Positions 29,060 through 37,836 of a stretch of DNA of 64,000 bases are shown piece after piece. A program made the position numbers and the translations under genes. The notes below the pieces were generated by a model that saw only the letters and a list, made by a program, of their open reading frames with translations, was not told the origin of the DNA and searched no databases. This DNA comes from an uncultured Bacteroidales bacterium (lineage in GTDB: Bacteria > Bacteroidota > Bacteroidia > Bacteroidales > Muribaculaceae): contig CACWID010000002.1 of assembly GCA_902760865.1 (NCBI GenBank), positions 124,001-188,000 on the forward strand. Direction: 5' to 3'. Each line of letters begins with the position of its first letter. Positions within the stretch are counted from its first letter, which is position 1.

Positions 29060-29504
29060 ATATTAGACTTTAGAAGTTAGGTGTCTAGATGGGCCTGATG
29101 GCACAGCCTCACTGGAGGGCGAGAGGGGTGAAATTGCAGTTTCGTCCGTTTCGTCCGTTTTTTTGGGTATATATATAAATATATATAAATTGAATGAAAT
29201 GGAAATTGTGTCATCGCAAGTTTTGACACACCAATTCCAATTGAATTAATTATTATCTAGTTTTCCGTTTCGTTCGTTTCGTCCGTTTCGTCCGCGAGTA
29301 CACGTGAATCTTGACAAAACTTACCCTTTTTTTCCAGAGAGAATGGCGCTGGTCTCCGCTAATCTTCTCATTCGTTTTTCCTGCACGCACGCGCGGACGA
29401 AACGGACGAAACGGACAGAACGGACAGAACGAATAAGGTCCCTAAGGTCTTTAACGACCCTAAGGACCTTAACTGTATCTGGAGGAACTCCTAACTCCTC
29501 ACTT
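29060..29504. repeat. Repeat-rich intergenic region with a 25-bp inverted repeat
   Basis: 445 bp between the BspA-like gene and the convergent CDP-alcohol phosphotransferase. It contains period-9 TTTCGTCCG runs (29141-29165, 29266-29296), the complementary GGACGAAAC run (29392-29430), period-9 AAGGTCCCT-type units (about 29435-29470) and TAACTCC heptamers (from 29486). The arms 29272-29296 and 29392-29416 pair at 24 of 25 positions with a 95-base AT-rich loop. No gene is seen. Confidence 0.8.
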
Positions 29505-30464
29505 CTAACTCCTAACTCCTAACTGGCCAAGCGCCTTCTTGCAGATGCCCTCGTGACGCATCACCATATAGATGAGCAGGATATTGAGCACCACAATCTC
29601 GAAGACGAAGTAGAGCCAGGGCACATTGCAGATCACCGCGATAAAGCAGGCGATGATGCGGGTGTTGAAGGTCAGGATGTTGGTGTACTTCATCAGCGGA
29701 CGGCTGAGGCCGCGGAAGTACTCACGGAAGTCCTGGCTGGGCACACCGTCCTCACCATACTTTTCGTTCAAGGCGGCACGCAGGCGCTGCATGTTGGGGG
29801 TCCAGCGCTCCTGGTTGGCGGTATAGCTCTTATAGAAGAACAGAACCAGCTTGTTGAAGAAGTTCCTACCCCAGTCGAGCTGTTGATACTGCTCCTTGAG
29901 CTTGGCGGCGCTGTCCAGCTCACTGCCCTGCTTGCCCTTGAGGAAGAAGAGGTGGAACTGGCGGTAGCTGTCGGCCATCGCGGCCTGCAGGGCGTGACTG
30001 AAGCCCGAGCCGAAGCCCAGTACCCAGATGAGCCACTCGTGCTCGGCGAAGAAATGCGGCCCCGTCAGGCTGTCGCCGAAGTGCAGCTCGCGGAAGACCA
30101 GGGCAAAGCCGATGGCGGCAAACCAGAAGTCGCCGCTGACGCCGTCCAGGATGCGGCCCATGCGGGAATACTGCTGGGTCATGCGCGCCAACTGGCCGTC
30201 GGCGCTGTCAAAGGTGTCGGCCCAAGTGATCAGCAGCATGCCCACCCAGTTGAGCCACGCCAGATGCGGCTGGTGGAAGTAAAGCATGATACCGCCGGCA
30301 ACGCCCATGAAGATGCTGGCGACGGTGATTGCGTTGGGGCTAACACCCAACTTGGCAAAAAACTTTGCCCACAGGAAACCCAATGGGCGGTGAAAGTGCA
30401 GGTCAAACCACTCCTCGGTGTCCATCGACTTGAGTGATGCCTGATATTCTTCTCTTAATGTCAT
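29505..30464 (-). CDS. CDP-alcohol phosphatidyltransferase family protein
   Basis: 319-residue membrane enzyme. The CDP-alcohol phosphotransferase signature is at about residues 85-110: DSADGQLAR, eight residues, then GRILDGVSGD. The canonical spacing is D-x2-DG-x2-AR-x8-G-x3-D-x3-D; here the last aspartate is one residue later (D-G-V-S-G-D), which may be a subfamily trait. Six or so helices cluster at both ends, and the protein is longer than typical phosphatidylglycerophosphate synthases. The enzyme would join a CDP-activated lipid and an alcohol (inositol, glycerol or similar) at the inner membrane; the substrate is not evident. The last residues (QLGVRS) are coded by a TTAGGAG heptamer array that also provides the stop. 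The next gene upstream on the strand is an ATP-grasp enzyme. Confidence 0.8.
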   Translation of the reverse strand: MTLREEYQASLKSMDTEEWFDLHFHRPLGFLWAKFFAKLGVSPNAITVASIFMGVAGGIMLYFHQPHLAWLNWVGMLLITWADTFDSADGQLARMTQQYSRMGRILDGVSGDFWFAAIGFALVFRELHFGDSLTGPHFFAEHEWLIWVLGFGSGFSHALQAAMADSYRQFHLFFLKGKQGSELDSAAKLKEQYQQLDWGRNFFNKLVLFFYKSYTANQERWTPNMQRLRAALNEKYGEDGVPSQDFREYFRGLSRPLMKYTNILTFNTRIIACFIAVICNVPWLYFVFEIVVLNILLIYMVMRHEGICKKALGQLGVRS

Positions 30465-30490: not shown

Positions 30491-30571
30491 TACTAGATGT
30501 ACTAGATGATCTGGATAGTCTAGAGTTTTCAACTCCTAACTTCTAACTCCTAACTTCTAACTCCTAACTAT
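30491..30571. repeat. Period-9 CTAGA array and period-7 TAACTCC array
   Basis: ctagatgta, ctagatgat, ctggatagt, ctagagttt (9-mers) are followed by AACTCCT/AACTTCT heptamers up to about 30569, between the ATP-grasp and CDP-alcohol genes. Confidence 0.85.
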
Positions 30572-31665: not shown

Positions 31666-31709
31666 CATGGTTATTGCTTTTTGTCATGGTGGGCCCTGAT
31701 TTGGGATGA

Positions 31710-31718
31710 TAATTTTGC
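31710..31718 (+). promoter_or_regulatory. -7 promoter box TAATTTTGC of the phage-derived operon
   Basis: Host-type promoter box 43 bp upstream of the portal start. TTTG/TTGG strings lie upstream near 31700. A host promoter rather than phage control suggests long-term residence. Confidence 0.65.
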
Positions 31719-31760: not shown

Positions 31761-33179
31761 ATGAAAACACCAACTAACCAAGAACGAGACAACCGGGTGC
31801 TGCACGCGGCCTACCAGGCGTGGATGAATGCAGCGGGCCTGCGCCAGGCGAGGCTCCGCAACAAGCGGTTCACCTATGGTGACCAGTGGGGCGACCTGGT
31901 CAAGGACCACACGGGGCGGGTGATGACCGAGGGCGAACACATGGCCAACCAGGGCTGTGAGAGCATCACCAACAACCTGATCCGCCAGCTGGTCAAGACC
32001 ATCGTGGGGCGCTTCCGCAGCCAGTACATCAAGCATGACGAGGCCACGACGGTCCCGGCGCAGGGCCGCATCGACAACGAACTTGACGAGCTCGACAGCC
32101 GCGCCCTGGAGGAGTTTCTCATCTCGGGCTGCTGCATCCAGCGCATCGAGACGGCCCAAGAGCCCGGCGGCGCTGAATACACCAGGGTTGACAACGTGAA
32201 CATCAACAGCCTGTTTGTCAACGCGATGGACGACACCAGGGCCTGGGACTGCGAACTCATCGGGCAGCTGCATGACTTGAACATCGCCCAGCTGCTGCGC
32301 CGCGTCGCCGGCGGCAATCAGCGCAAGGCGGCATGGGTGAGGAGGCTCTACAGCGACAGCGTGGACTCGCGGCTGGCCGACTTCACCACCCACCTGGGAG
32401 CCGACTCGCAGCAGGGACGCGACTTCTGGCACGCCCGCGAAGGCAAGTGCCGCGCCATCGAGGTGTGGACCCTCGAGAGCCGCGAGGTCATCGTGTGCCA
32501 CAACCGCCAGGAGGGCACGCTCAGCGTCGTTCCCGCCAGCATGGCTCAGTGCTACAAGAGCGACCCCGAAGTGAGTACCCGCTGGGACATCGCCACCGTG
32601 TGGCATTGCCGCTGGTTCAGCCCCATGGGCGACCTGCTGGCCGAGTACGACTCGCCGTGGGCCCATGGCAGCCACCCGTTTGTCATCAAGCTCTACCCGC
32701 TCACCGACGGCGAGGTACATGCCGTGGTCGAGGACATTATCGACACCCAGAAGCACGTCAACCGCATGATATCGCTGCTGGACCAGGTGATGCGCTCCAG
32801 CGCCAAGGGTGTGCTGCTGTTCCCCGAGTCGGCGCTGCCCGAGGGCTGGACCTGGGAGGACGCGCGTCGCTGCTGGTCGAGTGCCAACGGACTGCTGCCC
32901 TACAACCCGCGGTTCAGCGACGCGAGGCCCGAGCAGATCAGCTCCACCGGCGGCAACGAGAACGCCTTCAGGATGATCGAGCTGCAGATGAAGCTATTTG
33001 AGGACATCAGCGGCGTGAGCGGGGCGCTGCAGGGCAAGGCCCCGACGGTGCAGAGCGGCGGCGCCTACCAGCTGCAGAGCGAGAACGCCAACATCGCCTT
33101 GAGTGACGTCTTCGAGACGTTCGAGGCCTTCCGTCGCCAGCGCGACAAAAAGATCGCAGGCATCAGCCACAACAATTAA
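31761..33179 (+). CDS. Phage portal-like protein
   Basis: 472-residue protein resembling P22-type portal proteins. It shows an N-terminal RFTYGDQWGD-like motif (RNKRFTYGDQWGDLV), an ITNNLIRQLVKTIVGRFRSQ segment, an aromatic-rich core (VWTLESREVIVCHNRQEG), HGSHPFVIKLYPL, a DTQKHVNRMISLLDQ stem-like helix and a C-terminal ISGVSGALQGKAPTVQSGGA motif that in portals precedes the last helices. Portal proteins form the dodecameric DNA gate of a capsid. It is shorter than P22 portal (about 725 residues). The start at 31761 is used because a GTG at 31722 would fall at the expected transcription start. No terminase gene lies upstream: the neighbour there is a housekeeping ATP-grasp gene. Confidence 0.75.
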   Translation: MKTPTNQERDNRVLHAAYQAWMNAAGLRQARLRNKRFTYGDQWGDLVKDHTGRVMTEGEHMANQGCESITNNLIRQLVKTIVGRFRSQYIKHDEATTVPAQGRIDNELDELDSRALEEFLISGCCIQRIETAQEPGGAEYTRVDNVNINSLFVNAMDDTRAWDCELIGQLHDLNIAQLLRRVAGGNQRKAAWVRRLYSDSVDSRLADFTTHLGADSQQGRDFWHAREGKCRAIEVWTLESREVIVCHNRQEGTLSVVPASMAQCYKSDPEVSTRWDIATVWHCRWFSPMGDLLAEYDSPWAHGSHPFVIKLYPLTDGEVHAVVEDIIDTQKHVNRMISLLDQVMRSSAKGVLLFPESALPEGWTWEDARRCWSSANGLLPYNPRFSDARPEQISSTGGNENAFRMIELQMKLFEDISGVSGALQGKAPTVQSGGAYQLQSENANIALSDVFETFEAFRRQRDKKIAGISHNN

Positions 33180-33198
33180 CACCTTAAACCACAACAAC

Positions 33199-33606
33199 AT
33201 GAACGAGGAAAACCTTTCTAACGAAGAACACGGCACGGTGGTCACGCCACCGCCCTTTTGCCACAATGACGAACCGCAGCAGGACGTGCGCCCCGAAGGG
33301 CCGTCCGCCTCCCCCACCCTTGACGAGCGGATTGCTGCGATGGAACTCCAAGAGGATGTCAGCGACAGGCTCCGCGAACTCGTCCAGGGCCTCGGCGACG
33401 GCAACGTCAACGCCGAGCTGCTGGCCACCCTGGCCCAAGGCATCACCCACGACAGCGATGTACAGGATGCCGACACGACGGGCTACCTGCGCGGCCGCAA
33501 CGAGAAGATCGAGGCCGTGATGCATCCTCAACCTCAAGACCGCGATGCCGAGACGATGTCGGCTCCCGTCTTTCCCCGCTACTGCCGCCGCAGTATCTGG
33601 GACTGA
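33199..33606 (+). CDS. Small acidic protein, probable scaffold
   Basis: 135-residue acidic protein between the portal and capsid genes, the usual place of a scaffolding protein. The N-terminus is disordered (Glu, Pro, Gln rich). A predicted helical stretch (LDERIAAMELQEDVSDRLRE, then LVQGLGDGNVNAELLATLAQ) is followed by a loose tail. No catalytic motif or similarity to a named family is visible; the scaffold assignment comes only from position, size and charge. The start is the ATG at 33199, 19 bp after the portal stop. A period-9 repeat fills the gap to the capsid gene. Confidence 0.5.
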   Translation: MNEENLSNEEHGTVVTPPPFCHNDEPQQDVRPEGPSASPTLDERIAAMELQEDVSDRLRELVQGLGDGNVNAELLATLAQGITHDSDVQDADTTGYLRGRNEKIEAVMHPQPQDRDAETMSAPVFPRYCRRSIWD

Positions 33607-33625
33607 TTTCCCTTCCCCACTCCCC

Positions 33626-33672
33626 CTATAGTAACTATATTAACTATAGTGACTATAGCAACTATAACAACC
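33626..33672. repeat. Period-9 array (TAGTAACTA type) inside the phage-derived operon
   Basis: tagtaacta, tattaacta, tagtgacta, tagcaacta, taacaacca: five 9-mers between the scaffold-like and capsid genes. Arrays of this design are also found between host genes, so the operon has acquired host-style intergenic DNA. Confidence 0.85.
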
Positions 33673-33696
33673 ATTCATTTTAAATCCTTTACAAAC

Positions 33697-35103
33697 ATGA
33701 ACTACATGAATCTTTCCAAAGCCCTGCGCTGGATGCGCAACCACAAGAAGTTAGTCCTCTTTGTCATCACCATGATCCTGATCGCCATCCTCGCCTCGTG
33801 CGTGGGCGGTGACGGTACCGGTTTCTCGCTTGCCGCGGGCATGATCATCAGCGGCGTGGAGGATGGCAAACACGTTGTTGACGGCCCCCTGACGACCGAC
33901 CTCACCCATGAGGGCTCCCCCGACATGCTGCTCAACGAGATTGACCAGCAGATTGTCAAGATCCGTCCCATGTCCACGCCCATTGACCAGATTTCGCGCT
34001 ATGGCGGCTCCAAGCACGCCGGGAGCATGGTGGTCGATTACTACAGCGTGGACACCAAGCCCACCAAGTGTAGCCTGTCAAGCGACATCCCCGCCGTGAA
34101 CACGGCATCCAGCGGCAGCTCGCCCATGGTGGTCATCCACACCAGCAACGACGAAATCTTTGACCCCACCGACACCATCCTGGCCAAGGAAGTGGCCGGA
34201 TACCAGGAGGGCACCGACACCGAGAGCGAGGACGACCTGATGTTCTATGTCGTGAGCCGTGACCAAAACGGCGTGACCGTGATGGCCGTCAACGGCCCCA
34301 CCATCAACGGCCAGCCTAACTGCATTCCCGAGATCCTGGCAGGCACCGAGCTCATCCGCATGGGCCGCGCCGCCAGCGAACTGGACGTACAGTCGCCCCA
34401 ATTCGAGGCCTTGCCCAAGAAGAGCCGCAACCTGTGCCAAATTTTCAAGATGCAGGTGGAGCAGTCCACGCTGCAGCGCCTGTCCAACAAGGAAATCGGC
34501 TGGACGATGAGCGACCAAGAAGAGGCTGCCGTCTATGACATGCGCATGGGCATGGAGAAGTCCTTCCTCTTCGGATCGGCACGCCAGATCTGGGACAACA
34601 ACAAGAAGGAGTACGTCTATTTCACCGGCGGCATCTGGAAACAGGCCGGCAAGGAGCACTACATCGAGACCACTAACGGCATCACGGCCGACGGCATCAT
34701 TGAGCTGATGCGCGAGGCCTTCACCGGACATGCCGGCAGCAAGCGCAAGATCCTCATCGGCGGCAGCGGCCTGATCAGCAGCATCAGCAAGCTGGACTAC
34801 AACCGCGTGCTCACGGCGGGTCAGCACGTGAGCAAGTGGGGCATCGATTTCACCGAGCTGAGGTCGAAGTTCGGGTGTCTGTACCTCCTGCTGAGCGAGG
34901 TGTTTGACGAGGTGGGCATGGAGGACTGCGGCATCATCATCGATCCCGAGTACCTCCAGAAGTACACCCACATCCCCTTCAGCACCGAGCAGCTCAACCT
35001 CAAGAAGAGCGGCGTGCGCAACGTGGATGCACTGGTGATGACCGAGGCCTCATGCCTGGTGCTGCGATACCCCAAGGCCCACATGCGCGTGTTGACGAGA
35101 TGA
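33697..35103 (+). CDS. Phage major-capsid-like protein with lipoprotein-type signal sequence
   Basis: 468-residue protein. From about residue 60 on it looks like the SU10/DUF5309-type major capsid protein (HK97 fold): RPMSTPIDQISRYGG, VVDYYSVDTKPTKC, ELIRMGRAASELDVQSPQFE, RNLCQIFKMQVEQST, KRKILIGGSGLISSISKLDY and GIIIDPEYLQKYTHIPF. In front of it is a segment not expected in a capsid protein: RNHKK, then 15 hydrophobic residues (LVLFVITMILIAILA), then LASC, a perfect lipobox with Cys at about residue 31, followed by GGDGTG. It could be a signal peptide, a membrane anchor or a removable delta-like domain. The gene is intact, uses host-like codons and overlaps the next gene by 4 bp (ATGA). The start is the ATG at 33697; a later ATG that would omit the segment is not obvious before residue 44. 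Confidence 0.75.
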   Translation: MNYMNLSKALRWMRNHKKLVLFVITMILIAILASCVGGDGTGFSLAAGMIISGVEDGKHVVDGPLTTDLTHEGSPDMLLNEIDQQIVKIRPMSTPIDQISRYGGSKHAGSMVVDYYSVDTKPTKCSLSSDIPAVNTASSGSSPMVVIHTSNDEIFDPTDTILAKEVAGYQEGTDTESEDDLMFYVVSRDQNGVTVMAVNGPTINGQPNCIPEILAGTELIRMGRAASELDVQSPQFEALPKKSRNLCQIFKMQVEQSTLQRLSNKEIGWTMSDQEEAAVYDMRMGMEKSFLFGSARQIWDNNKKEYVYFTGGIWKQAGKEHYIETTNGITADGIIELMREAFTGHAGSKRKILIGGSGLISSISKLDYNRVLTAGQHVSKWGIDFTELRSKFGCLYLLLSEVFDEVGMEDCGIIIDPEYLQKYTHIPFSTEQLNLKKSGVRNVDALVMTEASCLVLRYPKAHMRVLTR

Positions 35104-35498
35104 AGTACTTCACCATCAAGGAGCTGACACGCTCGGACACAGCGCGCCACCTGGGCATCGACAACACGCCGCCGGCCAGTGCCGTCATGGCGCTGAACGA
35201 ACTGGTGGACCATGTGCTCGACCCGCTGCGCGAGGCCTGGGGAGGCCCCATCCACGTCAACAGCGGCTACCGCTGTCCCGAACTGAACAAGATTGTCGGC
35301 GGCACGCCAACGAGCCAGCACCAGCGCGGCGAGGCCGCCGACATCACGGTGGGCACACGCTCGGGCAACCGCCGCCTGCTGGCCCTGATCAAGCGCCTGG
35401 ACCTCCCCGTTGACCAATGCATCGACGAGAAAGGCTGCCGCTGGATCCACGTCAGCCACCGCTCGGGCCGCAACCGCCGCATGTACATGAAATTTTAG
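35100..35498 (+). CDS. M15 family peptidase (endolysin-type, Peptidase_M15_3)
   Basis: 132-residue zinc peptidase without signal peptide. The core motif is HVNSGYRCPELNKIVGG, then SQHQRGEAADI with the zinc-binding His and Asp (about residues 72 and 79), and the closing CRWIHVSH with the third ligand. Phage M15 enzymes cut peptidoglycan stem peptides (L-Ala-D-Glu or D-Ala-D-Ala type) for lysis or entry. Its start overlaps the capsid stop (ATGA), so expression is coupled to the capsid gene. No holin or spanin is present, and lacking a signal peptide it would need another route to the cell wall. A hairpin covering its stop codon (35492-35518) ends the operon. Confidence 0.85.
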   Translation: MKYFTIKELTRSDTARHLGIDNTPPASAVMALNELVDHVLDPLREAWGGPIHVNSGYRCPELNKIVGGTPTSQHQRGEAADITVGTRSGNRRLLALIKRLDLPVDQCIDEKGCRWIHVSHRSGRNRRMYMKF

Positions 35499-35518
35499 CT
35501 GCCTGTGGCAGCTAAAAT
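35492..35518 (+). terminator. Hairpin overlapping the M15 stop codon
   Basis: Perfect stem ATTTTAGCTGCC-TGT-GGCAGCTAAAAT with the TAG stop inside the left arm. The stem is followed by TG rather than a T run, so termination may rely on the flanking A/T of the arms. End of the phage-derived operon. Confidence 0.6.
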
Positions 35519-35582
35519 TGATGAGTGATGAGTGATTAGAGATTAGTGAACTAACGACTAACGACTAACGACTAGCGACTAA
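35519..35582. repeat. Heptamer arrays (GATTAGN, CGACTAA)
   Basis: gatgagtgattagagattagtg units, then ACTAACG heptamers up to the terminator at 35583. Confidence 0.85.
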
Positions 35583-35614
35583 CGAGGGCAAGAATCTTCT
35601 TGCCCTCGTTTTTC
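35583..35614. terminator. Strong intrinsic terminator
   Basis: CGAGGGCAAGA-ATC-TTCTTGCCCTCG stem followed by TTTTTCTTA. It ends any read-through from the phage-derived operon on the plus strand. It lies just beyond the glycerate kinase stop on the other strand and could serve that gene as well, though its A run on that side is shorter. Confidence 0.85.
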
Positions 35615-36757: not shown

Positions 36758-36845
36758 CAGCTAAAGGCTAAAGGCTAAAGGCTAAAAGCTAATGGCTAAA
36801 GGCTAAAAGCTAATGGCTAAAGGCTAAAAGCTAAAGGCTAAAAGC
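36758..36845. repeat. Heptamer array (GGCTAAA)
   Basis: About twelve CTAAAGG/CTAAAAG/CTAATGG heptamers, ending at the TAG stop (36846-36848) of the coiled-coil lipoprotein. Confidence 0.9.
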
Positions 36846-37781: not shown

Positions 37782-37836
37782 TATCTAATCTCTAATCTCT
37801 AATCTCTAATCACTAATCTCTAATCTCTAATCACTA
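37782..37836. repeat. Heptamer array (TCTAATC)
   Basis: Eight TCTAATC/TCACTAA heptamers. The last CTA is the complement of the rsmI TAG stop codon (37834-37836). Confidence 0.9.

Follow-up and report, generated by a model that had tools for sequence, protein, structure and literature searches.

Genes and signals of the operon

We analyzed a 64,000-nucleotide stretch of DNA (the window) from an uncultured Bacteroidales bacterium of the genus Sodaliphilus, family Muribaculaceae (assembly GCA_902760865.1, contig CACWID010000002.1, positions 124,001 to 188,000), and in it an operon of four phage-type genes. All four open reading frames (ORFs) are open and lie on the + strand, with a single promoter before and a single terminator after them. 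They encode a portal protein of 472 amino acids (31761..33179), a short scaffold homologue of 135 amino acids (33199..33606), a major capsid protein of the SU10/HK97 type with 468 amino acids (33697..35103), and an M15_3 peptidase of the endolysin family (35100..35498), which overlaps the capsid stop codon by 4 bases (ATGA). Profile searches assigned the portal to P22_portal (Pfam, 3.4e-15) and the PHROGs portal family (3e-38), the capsid to SU10_MCP (Pfam, 7.2e-48), and the M15 protein to Peptidase_M15_3 (Pfam, 1.1e-19) and PHROGs endolysin (2.6e-35). The window portal lacks about 140 C-terminal residues that are present in aligned phage portals.

The 135-residue ORF matched no Pfam family, and its best PHROG, phrog_22323, was weak (0.0052). 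This family is that of the gene directly before the capsid gene in Bacteroides phage BKO1-TP3 (1.2e-138), and genus relatives of the ORF match the BKO1-TP3 gene at 29-40%. The window ORF itself matches scaffold-position genes in other genera, and its C-terminus is the conserved RRSIWD. The scaffold label was given because of these four results. Of the 47 scaffolds compared, 45 have the motif [SD]-[IVF]-W-[DE] among their last eight residues; the only two without it are those of phages BKO1-TP3 and BF1-TP2 (the latter ends in SVWQ).

The structure model of the capsid was of low confidence (pLDDT, predicted local distance difference test, 60), so its best Foldseek matches, 9in6 (E 1.4e-11) and 7qoi (5.8e-7), serve as backing for the Pfam result; the portal model (pLDDT 42) was not used. 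The capsid begins with a hydrophobic N-terminal segment, which is present in 75 of 77 ORFs of the genus and lipobox-like in 55. The idea of a lipoprotein or membrane protein was dropped, since aligned phage capsids also start with a hydrophobic segment and five of six other Muribaculaceae genera begin the capsid after it. In related Bacteroides phages a rhomboid-like gene lies near a capsid gene that likewise encodes a hydrophobic N-terminus (L054, 19634-20101; L052, 37361-37879; L numbers denote loci), which perhaps points to a membrane-linked step in capsid maturation.

The promoter (31677..31717, + strand) consists of an extended -33 motif, CTTTTTGTCATGGTG, and a -7 box, TAATTTTG, at 31710-31717; its type is common to the unlinked nozzle-terminase operon of clade A, the Sodaliphilus clade of the window, both described below. 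The gap between the scaffold and capsid genes holds a 9-bp tandem array, CTATAGTAA (33626..33671, no strand). Short tandem arrays with units of 7 to 9 bp are numerous between the host genes of the window (29139-29524, 30531-30569, 36760-36842, 37784-37836), and the array inside the operon is of the same type. A 13-bp perfect inverted repeat (35491..35519, no strand) spans the M15 stop codon (fold z -5.8 against shuffles) and is followed by an intrinsic terminator of 13 pairs and then TTTCTTATTT (35581..35610, + strand), the hairpin of which is far more stable than shuffled versions of the same sequence (z -6.9). The region holds three terminator-like sites, no excess over shuffles (mean 4.0). 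The downstream neighbor is a host glycerate kinase gene (Pfam, 1.4e-109). The upstream neighbor had no Pfam match at 1e-3 and gave sub-cutoff matches to RimK/LysX-type ligases, the best at 2.5e-8. A preliminary description of this DNA had proposed four intact same-strand genes of these types, a -7 box, a closing hairpin with a strong terminator, the ATGA overlap and a host-style 9-bp array, and our analysis bore all of these out, the scaffold on the four grounds given above. Of the host genes it had placed on both sides, the glycerate kinase held, and the ATP-grasp gene upstream fits weakly.

Purifying selection acts on all four genes of the operon. Median ratios of nonsynonymous to synonymous substitution (dN/dS; NG86 method, pairs with dS < 0.8) were 0.16 for the portal (102 pairs), 0.40 for the scaffold (143 pairs), 0.22 for the capsid (381 pairs) and 0.15 for M15 (218 pairs); these ratios are rough because NG86 dS is biased by codon use. 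In Sodaliphilus, the frame stays open over the whole matched part in 78 of 85 capsid genes, and the gene is interrupted in the other seven (genomes G007, G015, G042, G061, G071, G074 and G076). Phage-like elements with serine recombinases (Resolvase and Recombinase domains) were observed inside the capsid gene in L031/L460 (IMG/VR 3300011002_000616) and L543/L544 (G071), one at about codon 251-255 and another at about codon 100-120. Breaks in G007, in G061 and at contig ends of G074 are also at about codon 251, which suggests that the capsid gene serves as an integration site. In G037 (L547), a partial second copy, consisting of the capsid C-terminus and M15, lies a few kb from the intact operon.

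Set members elsewhere in Sodaliphilus genomes

The terminase and integrase of BKO1-TP3 have no homologue inside the window. A terminase gene was found on another contig of the same genome (G000:C4:118269-120143), both as a profile match and with the BKO1-TP3 terminase, and it matches the PHROGs terminase large subunit (5.7e-17). All 11 aligned sequences agree at residues K125-R127, Q128-G130, S132-T133, E232, D437, E496 and D586-D587, which we take to be the ATPase and nuclease sites. Directly upstream on the same strand lies a gene of 672 amino acids (120154-122145) homologous to phage gp34, which may encode a nozzle-like protein. The integrase and replication proteins of BKO1-TP3 matched nothing in the window or in the 20-kb terminase locus, other integrase families not having been searched. 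The preliminary description had portrayed a set without terminase, tail or integrase. That is true of the window as far as the BKO1-TP3 terminase and integrase go and fails for the genome, which holds a terminase and a tail-like gene elsewhere; the idea that the set functions without them found no support, as the terminase is kept genus-wide.

Two records named as Candidatus Sodaliphilus share the contig coordinates of their capsid with same-genus genomes (Candidatus S. aphodohippi, L117, with G043; Candidatus S. fimicaballi, L160, with G031), which places the window's genome in this genus. Among the best 80 of 276 relatives, the other named ones are metagenome-assembled genomes from rumen and gut. 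Counting one place per genome and taking interrupted genes as present, capsid, portal and terminase genes of this type each occur in 85 of 91 Sodaliphilus genomes, and all three in 79 (the window's genome included). These counts exclude the G067 capsid and portal as well as second copies, phage-like or partial, in G008, G042, G037, G015 and G085. None of the three genes was detected in G062, and neither a capsid nor a portal of this type in G020, G063, G067 and G081; some of these genomes are incomplete. Distances taken between match starts revealed a terminase within 3.5 kb of the capsid in 0 of 80 genomes and within 3.5 kb of the portal likewise in 0 of 80; the pattern that, by the preliminary description, would have refuted domestication (a terminase always close by, with this locus a deletion) was not found. 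Portal and capsid lie within 3.5 kb of each other in 35 of 84 genomes and on different contigs in 41, which need not mean far apart because most genomes are fragmented. On the single contig of G060, the terminase is at 937 kb, the portal at 1358 kb, an adaptor-like gene at 1540 kb and the capsid at 1894 kb, so that over 400 kb separates any two of terminase, portal and capsid. The window operon is neither a stand-alone set nor a decaying prophage; it is one module of a dispersed set.

Two clades of Sodaliphilus differ in arrangement. Clade A has portal, scaffold, capsid and, in most cases, M15 in a single operon; among its 33 named loci, all four genes stand in the same order in 28, M15 is present in 29, and 20 of the stretches include glycerate kinase, the stretches varying in length and several being short. 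In clade B the portal is often away from the capsid, and M15, where seen (L067, L139), is beside the portal. The adaptor-like gene of clade B occupies a further separate locus (G060, G083, G038, G065, G072), and that of G083 adjoins a small head gene and a small-terminase-like gene.

The upstream regions of the clade-A portal operon (33 loci) and nozzle operon (22 loci) have the motif CTTTTTGNNNTKGYG-N17-20-TANNTTTG in common. This pattern matched once in the window and never in 100 shuffles, and it was present in 54 of 312 loci, 40 of them portal operons and 14 nozzle operons. The promoter of the nozzle operon in the window's own genome, TACCTTCG, has one mismatch. A slightly looser pattern gave 86 sites in 30 clade-A genomes, and the reversed pattern none; the sites were assigned to operons by eye, from coordinates. 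It was found at the portal operon in 28 of the 30 genomes (all except G049 and G002) and at the nozzle operon in 19, or 20 with G009:C25. Seven genomes (G025, G052, G087, G059, G017, G026 and G024) carry it at these two operons only. The portal and nozzle-terminase operons may thus be partly co-regulated, to judge from their upstream sequences. The motif also stands at a DUF6291-like/DUF6633 gene pair in five genomes, namely the window's own (G000:C28:1549, L344), G080, G044, G086 (two loci) and G006. Because it recurs there, it is not exclusive to the particle operons, and a switch acting on these operons alone was rejected, with 38 or 39 of the 86 sites elsewhere. The pair is possibly a regulator or a former phage replication gene.

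A reading of these loci as decaying prophage remnants scattered through rearrangement would account for the truncated portal, the seven interrupted capsid genes, a possible adaptor relic in G069 and the genomes that lack set genes. The preliminary description had preferred domestication to decay, and this view was supported: frequent frameshifts and relaxed selection were not observed, the dN/dS ratios being well under 1 and 78 of 85 capsid genes open. Gene order is conserved in the 28 clade-A loci, the promoter motif is shared, the genes are retained over many genera, and their trees are congruent across families (see below). We regard decay as extremely unlikely.

Distribution and inheritance across Bacteroidales

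A capsid match was obtained in 35 of 392 Bacteroidales genomes searched. After exclusion of G109, G364, G432 and G444, which were not counted as belonging to this type, and of the phage-type G378, 30 genomes remained, from 13 of 205 sampled genera and seven Bacteroidales families, with sets that are mostly dispersed. In 32 chosen genomes, the portal was present in all (in G325 as a fragment at a contig end) and the terminase in 31 (not G366). The nozzle-like gene was detected in 31 of 34 genomes (not G304, G366 and G325), weakly in several Muribaculaceae. In G320 and G348, each a single contig, the distance between neighboring set members ranges from 2 to about 246 kb. The order scaffold-capsid-adaptor-portal is found in five further genera of Muribaculaceae (G366, G304, G150, G466 and G222), and capsid-adaptor-portal in G420. 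In G117 and G149 a portal-nozzle pair directly adjoins the suf operon; sufB is 3.5 kb away from the nozzle gene of G158 and 1.2 kb away from the portal gene of Sodaliphilus G083 (suf names by NCBIfam).

Trees of the capsid (38 rows), terminase (39 rows) and portal (37 rows) were compared with rpoB, with and without G378. Each of the three recovered seven of eight host groups (f22, f28, f67, f86, f105, Sodaliphilus and other Muribaculaceae) as single groups, the last of which is not one group in the rpoB tree. The eighth, f60, was not recovered, with G378 far off and G149 and G320 unresolved or beside f67. Patristic correlations with rpoB were 0.40 for the capsid, 0.69 for the terminase and 0.59 for the portal (0.66-0.88 without Muribaculaceae), values reached in at most 8 of 2000 permutations. 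Splits in common with rpoB, of 22, numbered 13, 16 and 10, respectively, against null maxima of 3 (no more than 4 in any pair), and the three genes had 12-14 of 22 splits in common with one another against null maxima of 3-4. Because the three trees largely agree mutually and with rpoB, the set is old and mainly vertically inherited; the exceptions are the phage-type G378, second copies in G219 and G301, and the unresolved f60.

Phages are represented in the trees by a sample: the 27 and 43 non-redundant IMG/VR phages that we added come from the best 80 of 383 and the best 80 of 120 relatives. Most of them branched outside the dispersed copies. In the capsid tree the dispersed copies stayed together apart from G378, which groups with a compact phage (IMG/VR contig 2681813420_000001). 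The terminase tree did not resolve where this pair, a further phage and the phage-type copies in G219 and G301 stand among the dispersed groups, and some phage rows were unresolved in the portal tree also. These rows, a few of which stand among or at the base of the dispersed copies, would suit repeated independent capture of related phage genes in place of old vertical inheritance, as would the phage-type copies in G219, G301 and G378, which show that related phages enter these hosts. Every host group except f60, however, is one group per gene with repeated inner branching, and portal or nozzle genes lie at or near the suf operon in all four genomes named above; we consider capture highly improbable. 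Two compact phage clusters, L459 (IMG/VR 2681813420_000001) and L287 (G219:C32), hold a small-terminase-like gene, terminase, scaffold and capsid together and, being related to the dispersed copies, are candidates for the living parent lineage.

A candidate gene transfer agent and its relation to known systems

Host-encoded tailed-phage head and packaging genes, as expected of a gene transfer agent (GTA), are present. We think it likely that the operon belongs, as one module, to a DNA-packaging particle domesticated from a short-tailed phage and encoded at dispersed chromosomal sites, and that this particle is a GTA. Such a particle best explains the finding of a conserved capsid, scaffold and portal, a motif-intact terminase, a nozzle-like protein and an endolysin, which are mostly dispersed, co-inherited and apparently partly co-regulated. 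A shared promoter type would turn on the portal-scaffold-capsid-M15 operon together with the nozzle-terminase operon on another contig. Scaffold and portal would nucleate the capsid, the terminase would pump host DNA into it, and the nozzle-like protein would close the portal. The M15 endolysin would then help lyse the cell, freeing a presumably short-tailed particle for transfer. A tailocin, a tail without head genes, does not fit because the conserved part consists of head genes, nor does an encapsulin, an HK97-type shell without portal or terminase, because capsid, portal and terminase occur together in 79 of 91 genomes.

Several observations weigh against this interpretation, in addition to the interrupted capsid genes and the phage rows unresolved in the terminase and portal trees. 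The main one against a complete particle in the window's own lineage is the head-tail adaptor of clade B, no intact copy of which was found in the window's genome, nine other clade-A genomes or G012; G069 gave a weak match (1.5e-4) with six stops, which may be a relic. The clade-A loci examined showed no homologue of the small terminase or the small head gene, a genome-wide search not having been made, and no fiber gene was identified. The portal C-terminus is missing in 8 of 8 Muribaculaceae genomes examined, where the portals end at model position 498-511 of 610, and full matches in other families reach position 585-609. In G222 and G420 the set is not dispersed, since all four genes are within one stretch of 9-13 kb. 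Motif sites at genes other than the two operons make up 38 or 39 of 86 (36 of 39 looked at). The nozzle label is weak, its phage homologue falling in phrog_32516 (unknown function) with phrog_511, an internal virion protein, at 2e-4; this label, like those of the adaptor and small terminase, is one that we infer. Particle, packaging of host DNA, lysis and transfer are predictions from the genes.

Some of these observations would also fit a domesticated set that serves no gene transfer, in which capsid, portal and terminase jam incoming related phages, or which acts as a DNA-free device for lysis or delivery. Clade A has no detectable intact adaptor and a truncated portal, and the capsid gene can carry serine-recombinase elements. 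The genus also contains related prophages whose head genes are of this type (G008, G042 and G067), so interference would have a target. A jammer, however, would need neither a motif-intact terminase nor a scaffold and nozzle, and capsid and portal are kept over 13 genera, as are, with few misses, the terminase and nozzle-like gene; the identity to three phage records, 34-41%, is also low for interference. We therefore hold a function other than gene transfer to be possible and rather unlikely.

Going beyond the window, we lean slightly towards the view that the GTA-type set represents an ancient Bacteroidales lineage, the first in Bacteroidota, which had a single origin from a phage of the short-tailed type, was split into small operons and streamlined in Muribaculaceae (short scaffold, truncated portal), and still exchanges chromosomal DNA in many gut and rumen species. 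Members of this order are prominent in the communities of the gut and rumen, and their frequent gene exchange is explained mostly by conjugation and phages. If the reading is true, a vertically inherited packaging system across several families would be a further route of exchange and could explain host DNA in virus-like particles. It would also provide a GTA lineage independent of the alphaproteobacterial one for testing what GTAs are for. Search tools for phage clusters would miss these genes because they are scattered a few at a time. Among the papers listed by our searches of open-access literature, the coverage of which leaves most subscription papers and preprints outside, none concerned a GTA in Bacteroidota.

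RcGTA is encoded by one large head-tail cluster plus satellites, unlike the set described here, whose examined loci hold about one to four set genes in most genera. The parent also differs, with an SU10-type capsid and a P22-type portal, as does the host phylum, and transfer by the present set is a prediction. The RcGTA-type agents (Rhodogtaviriformidae, Alphaproteobacteria) are similar in that, in passages of PMC10883770, phage head and packaging genes are retained by the host and inherited mostly vertically, and in that, in passages of PMC11841831, the genes are spread over several loci. The title of a reference in PMC11841831 gives Brachyspira VSH-1 a divided genome; this agent and Bartonella BaGTA resemble our system, by description, as host-encoded particles. 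Parts of a 2026 gut study assign GTA activity mainly to Oscillospiraceae and Ruminococcaceae and lateral transduction to Bacteroides (PMC12946183). The capsids of Vibrio phage VP1 and crAss001, at 11-14% sequence identity, were the best fold matches to the predicted model of the window capsid. Bacteroides phages BKO1-TP3, BF1-TP2 and BS-TP4 (the last known only as a match) have homologous capsids and portals, only 34-41% identical to those of the window. BKO1-TP3 also holds homologues of the terminase, scaffold, nozzle-like and adaptor genes, and IMG/VR contig 2681813420_000001 has terminase, scaffold, capsid, adaptor and small-terminase-like genes together. Unlike the set of the window, these phages are each one genome; BKO1-TP3 and BF1-TP2 encode an integrase, and BKO1-TP3 also has a gene for replication initiation.

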